A stretch of DNA of 64,000 nt from Lachnospiraceae bacterium (GTDB lineage: Bacteria; Bacillota; Clostridia; Lachnospirales; Lachnospiraceae). The stretch's first letter is position 1. The number at the start of each line of letters is the position of its first letter. The position numbers were made by a program, and so were the translations under genes. The notes beneath the pieces are model-generated. The model ran no database searches, had not been told where the DNA came from, and saw only the letters and a list, made by a program, of their open reading frames with translations. The stretch covers positions 230,948 through 294,947 of the forward strand of contig JAGBBV010000020.1 of the NCBI GenBank assembly GCA_017938315.1. The letters run 5' to 3'. Shown in pieces: positions 2,732 to 5,742 of the stretch.

Positions 2732-3934
2732 TTACCCAACTCTTTTAGCTACTACTACAAATCTGCCATCTTCCTGTGAATGATCACAGGTTGACAATGT
2801 AAGCAGGCTGTCACCATACTTTGCTGTGACACCTGTATCATACAAACTCATTTTTGACATTTCATTCATGTATGAATCAAACTCTGCTTCAGAATTTGCT
2901 TCTATAAACTGATAATATTTAAAAACAATATCATCTTCATTGTAAACCTGGGAACGGAACACATACATTACCTGATAAGTCGCCTTTTCATAAATGGTAT
3001 CAAACTGTATCAGGGCATGTTCTTTCCCATAGGACTCCTTTGCATATTTCTGCAGATTACCAAACATATTTCCGGATTTCATATGATGTCCGTATAAAAT
3101 GAGATTGGTAGACTTTGGATAAGCACTACACGCATAATCCATAAAGATGCTTCCATTCTTGTCATACTCCTGATTAAAATTATGATCAAGGTAATATTCA
3201 TTGTTAGAAGTCTGCATAACAGGGTAGTCTATATTTGTATCGTCAATTTTTAGCCATCCGATTAGTCTTTTATTCTTTTCATATAAAGTTTTATATTCAT
3301 CAAGCACATCAGGAAGCTTAATTCCTTCTTTATGTATGGCAAATTCGTTCTTTTTTTGTGCATTTGCCGACAGTGCATCGCTTCCTTTCAGTTCTGCCAA
3401 ATCCTCATAATCGACACTGGTTTTTTCTGCAAAAAAATAGTACCCGCCAAAATATCCAAAGCACAAAACCGCTATCAACGATGCCATTATTATAATAAAC
3501 TTACGTCTCTTTTCTCTTTTATCAAGTTCAAGTAAAATCTGAACCTGCATGTCCCTATCATAATCCTCAAGACGTATTTTTTTCTTTTTCGCCGAATTCT
3601 TTGAACTTTTCTTTGTTTTGTTTGATGTTTTCTTTTTATCAGTGCTTTTTTCTTTTATTTTAATCTTGTCTGTGGCATTTTCAGGTGTAATGCCGCTTGC
3701 ACGAAGTTTCTCAACTTTTGCATATATCTCATCATCAAAGTCTGTACCTAACGCTGATTCAAAACGATAAATACCACTCTGTAATTCATTGAACAACTCA
3801 TATATCTGTTTGGGGCTGTTTAAATCTGTTTCTGCCTTAATGCGCTCTATCTTCTTACTGTCACGCAAAGCAGCCTCATAATCTGACTGGGTTCTAAACC
3901 GTCTCCCCTCTACTGTCAGGTCATCTGCTGTCAT
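2732..3934 (-). CDS. srtB: class B sortase with long cytoplasmic N-terminal extension
   Basis: Transpeptidase that attaches surface proteins to the cell wall. The C-terminal half has the sortase fold signature: catalytic His in LYGHHMKSGNMFG, the active-site motif TLSTC (Cys about residue 383) and Arg in DGRFVVV. TLSTC followed by D-H and the late Arg is typical of class B. I place the start at 3934 (MTADDL), which has AAAGGAG at good spacing; the frame extends 21 codons further without a site. Unusually, a single membrane segment lies at residues 145-168, preceded by about 140 charged residues including a Lys/Ser-rich linker, whereas most sortases begin with their anchor. The gene directly precedes the LRR surface protein. 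Confidence 0.92.
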   Translation of the reverse strand: MTADDLTVEGRRFRTQSDYEAALRDSKKIERIKAETDLNSPKQIYELFNELQSGIYRFESALGTDFDDEIYAKVEKLRASGITPENATDKIKIKEKSTDKKKTSNKTKKSSKNSAKKKKIRLEDYDRDMQVQILLELDKREKRRKFIIIMASLIAVLCFGYFGGYYFFAEKTSVDYEDLAELKGSDALSANAQKKNEFAIHKEGIKLPDVLDEYKTLYEKNKRLIGWLKIDDTNIDYPVMQTSNNEYYLDHNFNQEYDKNGSIFMDYACSAYPKSTNLILYGHHMKSGNMFGNLQKYAKESYGKEHALIQFDTIYEKATYQVMYVFRSQVYNEDDIVFKYYQFIEANSEAEFDSYMNEMSKMSLYDTGVTAKYGDSLLTLSTCDHSQEDGRFVVVAKRVG

Positions 3935-3965
3935 GGCACACTTCTCCTTTATGACATATATATTT

Positions 3966-3993
3966 ATTTTACTATATATTGAAATTAATTCAA
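3966..3993 (-). promoter_or_regulatory. sigma-A type promoter for the sortase-LRR operon
   Basis: On the minus strand TTGAAT and TAAAAT are separated by 16 bases, about 30 bases upstream of the chosen sortase start. Confidence 0.5.
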
Positions 3994-4137
3994 GCACTTT
4001 ATCAAGATGTTGCGTATTTTTTTATGTTTTAATTGTTTCATTTACCATTTATATCCAAAAAGACATTTGCACGACCGGTATATCACCCATCATACAAATG
4101 CCCTTTCTTCTAACACATAATAAAAATCAACATATTC

Positions 4138-4374
4138 CTACTTTTTTTCACACTGCAAAGCTTGTATCTCATCTAGTGTAAGCGACGGCACATATTCCGC
4201 AATCTCTTCTATACTAAAGTTTCCTTTTTGCAGCATCGCCATAGCTGTTTCTTTTGCTGTTTTCTTTCCACCTTCTTCAATCCCTTGTTGTATTCCTTGT
4301 TGTATTCCTTGTTCAACGCCTTCTTCATACCTTACTTCCAGAGCATCTTCCATGTTAAACTGTGTAAATAACAT
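4138..4374 (-). CDS. candidate internal gene: C-terminal Rpn small protein (78 aa)
   Basis: An in-frame ATG at codon 223 of the Rpn gene is preceded by GGAGG at 4383-4387, an 8-base spacing that rivals the main start. Translation from here would give only the C-terminal domain with the GIQQ repeats. Enteric rpn genes are known to make short C-terminal proteins from internal starts that inhibit the full-length toxin. Whether this site is used here is inference; the GGAGG also encodes part of the residues S-E-A-V, so chance is possible. Confidence 0.4.
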   Translation of the reverse strand: MLFTQFNMEDALEVRYEEGVEQGIQQGIQQGIEEGGKKTAKETAMAMLQKGNFSIEEIAEYVPSLTLDEIQALQCEKK

Positions 4375-5040
4375 ATTAACCGCCTCCGAACCATTTTCTC
4401 TTATAAAACCTGTCATAATATCTTCCTTTTTGCAATCTTCAATAGAAAAACTAATTGCTTCAGAAAGTCCGCAGCCATTACTTTCATATTCTCTTATTCT
4501 CTGGATAAACCATGAATATTCATACAACGGTCTGCATTTTTGTAATATAGGATGATTGACAGGAAAATTAATGTTAATTATCTTTACTGTTAATTCTAAC
4601 ATAGGATTCTCTGTTTTTTCAATATATGCTTCAGATAATTTTAACGTTTTTTCGACAGGAAATTTCTCTTTTCCATTATAGAACACAAAGAATTCAGGCG
4701 TTGGAATCTTAATGAGTGATGTTTGGTATAGTTTTCTATCCTCTATCATTTTTTCCATTGTTCTGCCATAATAAATTGCATCTCTTAATGGCATATTAGC
4801 ATTAATCGTTGACTGATGCTCACTTATTACCAGCACTCTTCCTTTTACTTGAAACGCCATATCATTTTTGCGTGCCATAAAAAGTACTCCTGATAACGTC
4901 TCATAAGATATGTCCTCCGGTTTTATCCCTTCTTTCTCACTAAGTGCTTCATATAATTTTGCAGCATTTTCCGGCACACTAAAAAATGCTGTAAAAGCAC
5001 TTGACTTCCATTTCTTATTTGGATTTTTTGTTTCTTCCAT
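4138..5040 (-). CDS. Rpn family recombination-promoting nuclease (PD-(D/E)XK type)
   Basis: A 300-residue protein of the Rpn/YhgA-like family, DNases related to transposase-linked proteins and implicated in recombination and phage defence. The nuclease core is in the first 150 residues: an Asp in KNDMAFQV, then VLVISEHQST with the conserved E-x-Q, then the family's NANMPLRDAIYYGR segment. The middle is helical. The C-terminal part carries a short tandem repeat (EQGIQQGIQQGIEEGG), common in this family, then a helical tail. Start at 5040 has AGGAGG. It stands alone between unrelated genes, as is usual for these mobile accessory genes. An in-frame internal start lies at 4374 (separate entry). 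Confidence 0.85.
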   Translation of the reverse strand: MEETKNPNKKWKSSAFTAFFSVPENAAKLYEALSEKEGIKPEDISYETLSGVLFMARKNDMAFQVKGRVLVISEHQSTINANMPLRDAIYYGRTMEKMIEDRKLYQTSLIKIPTPEFFVFYNGKEKFPVEKTLKLSEAYIEKTENPMLELTVKIININFPVNHPILQKCRPLYEYSWFIQRIREYESNGCGLSEAISFSIEDCKKEDIMTGFIRENGSEAVNMLFTQFNMEDALEVRYEEGVEQGIQQGIQQGIEEGGKKTAKETAMAMLQKGNFSIEEIAEYVPSLTLDEIQALQCEKK

Positions 5041-5249
5041 TTACTTCCTCCTTTTGTTTATTATTCATACACTTATTGGAAATGTGGCAAATAATGCCGG
5101 ACGAAGAATATCCTCAAGAACCTGTAATTGATTTACAAGTATAAGAATTTCCAATATGCTTTCAGATATATTGAGAATAACACATACTGTCTTCTTTGAC
5201 AATCTGATAGTTTTATTTCTACTACTCTTTATCGCGATGCCGCACAATT

Positions 5250-5304: not shown

Positions 5305-5742
5305 TTAACCTAAATAATTAATATTATAACCAACTAATAAAACATTCTTTATAATGCACTGCAATATAATAATCACTATCATTACATAAAAGTAAATGGG
5401 TTTAAATTGCGGTGCTTTACATCTGCCTTTTGAGAATGTATGTATTGTATGTAAAATCAGATAACATCCAATTAATACAGCCGCATACAAAACAGCCGGA
5501 TGATATATAAAGCTTTTTATAAGTTTTCCTGTCAAAAGAAAATGAACCGCACGTGTTCCGCCACACCCGGGACAATACAGTCCCATCACACGATACAGCA
5601 TACATGTTTCCGGATATATTTCCGTAATTGCAATATCAAAATAGCTAAGTGCTAAATAACATACAAATAATATAAAACAAACCAGTAAACATATATAATA
5701 AATTATTCGTGACAAACGGTATTCATAATCCTTTTCGTCCAT
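5305..5742 (-). CDS. DUF2752 membrane protein
   Basis: A 145-residue protein with three or four hydrophobic segments. It carries the family hallmark YCPGCGGTRAVHFLLTGK, a CxxCGxTRA motif followed by an amphipathic stretch, near residues 50-68. The function of DUF2752 is not established; the paired cysteines suggest metal or redox binding. The ATG is 5 bases after the stop of the DUF4190 gene, so the two are co-transcribed. The only SD-like sequence before it is a weak GGTGG, so translation probably depends on coupling. Confidence 0.85.
   Translation of the reverse strand: MDEKDYEYRLSRIIYYICLLVCFILFVCYLALSYFDIAITEIYPETCMLYRVMGLYCPGCGGTRAVHFLLTGKLIKSFIYHPAVLYAAVLIGCYLILHTIHTFSKGRCKAPQFKPIYFYVMIVIIILQCIIKNVLLVGYNINYLG

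Follow-up and report, generated by a model that had tools for sequence, protein, structure and literature searches.

An Rpn-family nuclease gene of a Lachnospiraceae bacterium with a conserved intragenic start for a predicted antitoxin

The closest described counterparts of the gene analyzed here are the rpn genes of Escherichia coli. The available parts of Zhong et al. (2023, PMC10327210) report that E. coli RpnS inhibits the toxicity and DNA cleavage of RpnL and forms a 2:2 complex with it, and that the specificity of RpnL/RpnS is tuned by repeats. They also describe freestanding rpnS copies and a short protein that was seen when a Clostridioides difficile gene was expressed in E. coli. Among the matches listed in the mostly open-access literature searched, neither Rpn internal starts in Lachnospiraceae nor the exchange of Rpn terminal modules was the subject of a paper. 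The intragenic antitoxin arrangement is, thus, known from E. coli; the conservation of its signals across 139 relatives is measured in the present study.

Gene layout and membership in the Rpn family

The gene lies in a 64-kb stretch of Lachnospiraceae DNA that was analyzed as a whole (hereafter, the window), and its features are listed in Table 1. An earlier note on this DNA placed a GGAGG 8 nt before an in-frame ATG at codon 223 and proposed a 78-residue C-terminal product containing the repeats. The coordinates were correct, and the ORF translation agreed with the proposed product, which consists of a short front part, the five four-residue repeats, and a terminal module. The repeats start 15 residues past the internal Met, and a 12-bp DNA repeat was detected within the repeat region at 4283-4313 (TRF). 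Among the adjacent ORFs, the downstream neighbor (2732-3997, minus strand) appears to resemble a class B sortase; the upstream neighbor (5305-5742, minus strand) is a small membrane protein with a CPGCGGTRA motif that we take to resemble DUF2752.

Table 1. Features of the rpn gene and their positions in the window
Feature	Position	Strand	Basis
rpnL, full-length Rpn-family PD-(D/E)XK nuclease, 300 aa	4138..5040	-	ORF and profile match to RpnA-like proteins
Full-length start: SD GGAGG 5051-5047 and 6-nt spacer (GGAGG-N6-ATG, 5051-5038)	5041..5051	-	
Active-site stretch D60, E74-H-Q76, R86	4783..4863	-	Aligned with RpnA D63, E82, Q84, R94
Promoter-like element, intragenic: -35 TTGAAA 4622-4617, 18-nt spacer, TG 4601-4600, -10 TAGAAT 4598-4593	4593..4622	-	Subclade conservation
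Intragenic Shine-Dalgarno (SD) of rpnS, GGAGG	4383..4387	-	
Internal ATG of rpnS (codon 223 of rpnL)	4372..4374	-	
rpnS, 78-aa C-terminal protein, predicted antitoxin	4138..4374	-	ORF and conservation
Five four-residue repeats, YEEG VEQG IQQG IQQG IEEG	4270..4329	-	Sequence and TRF
Terminal module downstream of the repeats, tail class 6	4138..4269	-	Tail clustering

The window protein did not reach the cut-offs of the family libraries, scoring 15.8 bits for PF04754 (Pfam; cut-off, 21 bits) and 22.5 bits for TIGR01784 (NCBIfam; cut-off, 52.1 bits). Its membership in the Rpn family, therefore, rests on the comparison of profiles. From 124 prepared references, 64 relatives were combined with the window protein into one profile, which was aligned using hhalign with RpnA, RpnB, and six RpnA-like proteins of Bacillota (98.2%, E 3.1e-14, 274 columns) and with RpnA and RpnB alone (71.9%, E 3.5e-5, 132 columns). 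The earlier identification as an Rpn nuclease was, thus, supported despite the library scores. The alignment with RpnA, at 18% identity, continues through the tail, and the internal Met residues of RpnA and the window protein are two alignment columns apart. With its scores below the library cut-offs, the window protein represents a divergent Rpn subfamily. The matches of the tail to FliH (NCBIfam) and to Yae1_N and DUF433 (Pfam) were judged to be chance matches of repeats or short helices. A sequence search of solved structures matched designed repeat proteins only, and PADLOC gave one weak match (E 0.0012) in the repeat region. The search of viral contigs used a single-protein query, which detects only close relatives, and yielded 9 pattern matches and 0 relatives.

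The RpnA residues D63, E82, Q84, and R94 align with D60, E74, Q76, and R86 of the window protein, which were conserved in 65, 65, 63, and 64 of the 65 rows, respectively. The equivalent of RpnA D11 is S13 in the window protein (codon 5002-5004). In this column, Asp was present in 37 of the 65 rows and Ser, Ala, or Asn in the other 28, including the window, and, since the residue varies among relatives, it does not define the family. RpnA-D11A lost three phenotypes according to the available text of PMC5350276; therefore, the nuclease activity of the window copy is not assured. The substitution raises the possibility that the internal start works, while the window copy is a silent or inactive remnant without the acidic residue that RpnA needs. 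We consider this to be unlikely because Ser, Ala, or Asn is common at this position among the closest relatives, which keep D60, E74, Q76, and R86. Furthermore, the ORF is intact, and the subclade of the window gene retains both the SD and the promoter-like element described below.

The bare SD-start motif is weak evidence for a start when taken alone. GGAGG-N5-10-ATG was found at 28 sites in the window against 10.4 expected from shuffles, and a second, out-of-frame instance occurs inside rpnL at 4918-4902. A single site of this type may be due to chance, and, thus, its conservation was examined. RNA structure around the internal start was not unusual (z -1.04).

Conservation of the internal ribosome site and start

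Relatives were drawn from the genus, where 37 of 37 genomes had a match (own genome included), from the family, where 150 of 299 did, and from GTDB contigs, which contributed 33 loci. The resulting 183 loci gave 164 ORFs, 158 of which scored at least 90 bits. Deduplication, which removed rows sharing more than 60% of their five-residue words, left 140 genes, and 139 were tested after L053_1, with no letter at the hinge column, had been dropped.

The earlier note had proposed, as a check, that GGAGG-N8-ATG be conserved beyond what the protein needs, and this was strongly the case. GGAGG was present at exactly -13 to -9 in 101 of the 139 homologues, whereas 11.6 were expected from the codon usage of each gene outside the hinge (13.9 when the hinge codons enter the codon usage). 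GAGG was found at this position in 133 genes against 52.4 expected; homologues that keep the protein while losing the SD, which the note regarded as counterevidence, were correspondingly rare (6/139 without GAGG at its place). The Glu of the SD column was encoded by GAG in 135 of 135 cases versus 39.5% elsewhere in the same genes. Six further columns contained 90 or more Glu, and the share of GAG at these was 29-53%. The preceding codon ended in CG in 96/139, even though its residue varies (Ser, Thr, Ala, and others). The start column contained ATG in 101 genes and GTG in 29, and Val at this column was encoded by GTG in 29 of 32 cases. In the remaining nine genes, ATG or GTG occurred in frame no more than two codons away, such that a start was available in 139/139.

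In the column-by-column codon test, columns 219 and 218, which hold the SD codons, were the most constrained of 285 (z 8.1 and 7.6, respectively), and the codon immediately following the internal start ranked third. The SD codons remained the top two among 74 representatives with less than 60% identity and among 13 with less than 45% identity. In a set of 3 representatives below 38% identity, which is too small to rank columns, they were outside the top five. Among the 29 subclade genes alone, column 218 ranked second and the Glu codon was GAG in 28/28; column 219 fell outside the top five because the columns of the promoter-like element take the lead there. As a separate observation, codon column 136 showed a mild additional codon bias in the wider family (TCG, 48 vs. 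18.6 expected). An alternative internal start, AAGGA-N7-ATG at 4416 (codon 209), was rejected since its columns did not show unusual codon constraint.

These results bear directly on the explanation that the SD arises through chance or protein constraint alone, as a by-product of the codons for a conserved Ser/Thr/Ala-Glu-Ala/Val peptide. The peptide is indeed conserved, and the bare motif is common in the window (28 sites). However, alternative codons for the same residues are rare, with the CG ending in 96/139 and Glu always encoded by GAG, and the excess of GGAGG over expectation (101/139 vs. 11.6) persists among the 13 divergent representatives (9 vs. 1.0). We regard this explanation as so improbable that it merits next to no weight. 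Because of its conservation across homologues, we conclude that the internal start of rpnS is almost certainly real.

The exceptions were few. Under a wider definition of the SD (three four-base words at 4-12 nt), it was absent in 3/139. One gene (L068) lost the SD together with the ExQ and R residues of the active site, as would be expected if an inactive toxin had no need of an antitoxin, and another exception (L064) is a fragment. Conversely, L084 and L098 are without standard SD words, yet have apparently active nuclease residues, whereas L080 (D60V) and L109 (Q76L) keep the SD with an altered active-site residue. Therefore, in this small set, the loss of activity and the loss of the SD are not closely coupled.

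The signal extends to other lineages. In a second Rpn clade (36 ORFs, 33 kept), an SD codon before the hinge Met was the most codon-biased of 275 columns (z about 3.6). A phylum-wide search with TIGR01784 gave 43 loci, 13 of which were hand-picked; 39 were tested after three without a central rpn ORF and one from the window's own genome (L175) had been dropped, and a start with a five-base SD in the expected zone was present in 28 of these 39 against 9.9 expected. It was also observed that, in paralogues in the window's genome (L184 and L186/L204; contigs C25 and C38), the hinge Met lies 14 nt downstream of a strong SD (AAGGAGG or AAAGGAG); several related genes have a codon such as ATA, ATT, CTG, or GTG 5 nt after an SD of this type.

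Freestanding and partial copies of rpnS were found. In another Bacillota genome, one of those from the TIGR01784 search (L201, 4411-5209), a full rpn gene is followed by two freestanding tandem rpnS copies. Their match to the full gene starts approximately 37-40 nt before the internal start, and GAGGTG and ATG are kept. The two copies are nearly identical, and the number of IKEG repeats differs (2, 6, and 3 across the full gene and the copies). Partial copies were hand-picked (12 in total), and 11 had the SD and start, while L240 did not. Four of them (L236-L239) retain GGAGG-N8-ATG and 72-98 open codons, although short ORFs may stay open by chance; a significant front part was not detected on the coding strand in roughly 500 nt upstream of these four.

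In principle, ribosomes could be slowed where an SD-like site falls on a domain boundary. Accordingly, GGAGG may be a translational pause between the nuclease and tail that allows co-translational folding, with no second protein being made. This appears very improbable because a start codon at a fixed distance survives the change between Met and Val, mainly as GTG, the promoter-like element is conserved upstream in the subclade, and the freestanding copies begin near the internal start.

The internal product may also be real, but serve as a structural subunit needed by the nuclease complex rather than as an inhibitor, similar to Cas11d for Cas10d, a case named in the available parts of Zhong et al. 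(PMC10327210). The conservation of the start cannot separate a helper from an inhibitor. However, E. coli RpnS blocks cleavage and toxicity and forms a 2:2 complex according to the same source, and the rpnS part is kept in freestanding copies and in copies with no recognizable front part, a pattern more in keeping with an antitoxin than with a helper. We, thus, find a purely structural role distinctly improbable and favor an antitoxin.

A promoter-like element within the coding sequence

In the codon test of the subclade, columns 140, 148, and 146 were prominent. Read together on the coding strand, they form a promoter-like element that is additional to the earlier note. The element, TTGAAA-18-TGnTAGAAT, has the extended -10 form and matches the consensus at 10 of 12 positions plus the TG. 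A plain consensus scan detected it as one of 11 sites against 8.4 expected; therefore, the match in the scan means little alone.

Conservation in the subclade was more informative. The best promoter-like site was located at the same codon in 26 of the 27 usable genes (27/29 rows usable) and exceeded synonymous shuffles at the 5% level in 23 of the 27. TAGAAT was present in 26 of 26 usable genes (26/29 usable) versus 1.5 expected, and was spelled via Leu and Val codons alike, while xTTGA was present in 24/26 versus 4.7 expected. Only 42% of the third positions were identical in the subclade at shared residues with at least four codons. A promoter-like element kept inside a coding sequence amid strongly diverged synonymous sites represents an unusually clear case of overlapping information. 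Outside the subclade, the family did not show an excess of sigma-70-like internal promoters (1/110 genes at 5%) or of TAGAAT (9/111).

In the subclade of the window gene, rpnS probably has its own intragenic promoter, with a transcript predicted to begin near 4586, and this would make rpnS a nested transcription unit. The idea of an internal rpn promoter is already known since the available parts of Zhong et al. (2023, PMC10327210) report such promoters, together with transcripts, for E. coli rpn genes.

Terminal modules, proposed mechanism, and comparison with known systems

The first clustering of tails merged 134 of 166 via the repeats; therefore, clustering was repeated on the part after the repeats. 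The 166 terminal modules from the two clades (133 and 33) then formed 41 classes, nine of which had at least three members, with the numbers depending on single linkage at E < 1e-4. Six classes were common to both nuclease clades, five of these having at least three members, and BLAST of the window's nuclease domain against the second clade gave nothing significant (best E 0.097). For the first clade, a quick nuclease tree was made (129 rows, 24 without a class of at least three members); on it, the tail class changed at least 45 times among the 105 labelled genes, whereas 200 label shuffles gave a mean of 60.75 changes and never fewer than 56. As judged from these sequences, tail classes are partly inherited and often exchanged. 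Two genes (L065 and L046) have nucleases that are 84% identical and tails of different classes. The break between them lies in the repeats, approximately 20 residues past the internal Met, so that the nuclease retains the front part of RpnS. The window's genome contains at least seven rpn genes, and the seven examined carry five tail classes.

Based on the five classes in seven genes, the classes shared across clades, and the differing tails of L065 and L046, we speculate that the gene consists of a chassis, in which the promoter, SD, start, and first helix are fixed, and an exchangeable specificity cassette. Modules would be swapped via the 12-bp repeats, the toxin and antitoxin would change specificity together through a single event, and one genome would keep several mutually blind pairs. 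We give this proposal an even chance of being correct. Close nucleases with unlike tails make it possible to test directly how toxin-antitoxin specificity can change without a lethal mismatch.

The homology of the profiles, the aligned residues, and the nearly coincident internal starts point to an Rpn gene in which an rpnS unit is nested, and we consider it highly probable that the gene works as an RpnL/RpnS-type toxin with an intragenic antitoxin. RpnL, an endonuclease of 300 aa, and RpnS, its C-terminal 78 residues, would be produced from the same DNA. The SD of RpnS would direct initiation at ATG 4374, and, in the subclade, RpnS would probably also be transcribed from the intragenic promoter. 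With its own SD and probably its own promoter, RpnS may be made independently of RpnL, probably in excess. It would pair with RpnL through the C-terminal helix and repeats, which are identical in both proteins, and keep the nuclease inactive, and infection or stress may free RpnL from RpnS. Toxicity, inhibition, complex formation, and phage defense are attributed to the window gene by analogy with the described systems. The internal start is kept in nearly all 139 deduplicated relatives by codon-level selection; therefore, many genes that appear to encode a single nuclease very probably make two proteins.

The known systems differ in how closely they resemble this locus. In Cas10d/Cas11d, as described in the available parts of PMC10327210, the same gene likewise yields a short protein through an internal start; however, Cas11d helps its complex, whereas RpnS inhibits. 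The window protein shares with RpnA (YhgA) of E. coli K-12 the EHQST motif and the equivalents of D63, E82, Q84, and R94 (available text of PMC5350276), but differs from it in the low identity of the profile alignment (18%) and in the replacement of D11 by S13. Similar to E. coli RpnL/RpnS, as far as the available parts of Zhong et al. describe it, the window gene encodes a PD-(D/E)XK nuclease with C-terminal four-residue repeats, and its internal SD and start precede the repeats by 15 residues, within the range of 8-20 residues of that system. The internal promoter and transcript of the E. coli rpn genes may have a counterpart in the promoter-like element, which is confined to the window's subclade. 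In contrast to the E. coli pair as described there, the window nuclease is divergent, with Ser as the equivalent of Asp11, and close nucleases bear terminal modules of different classes.
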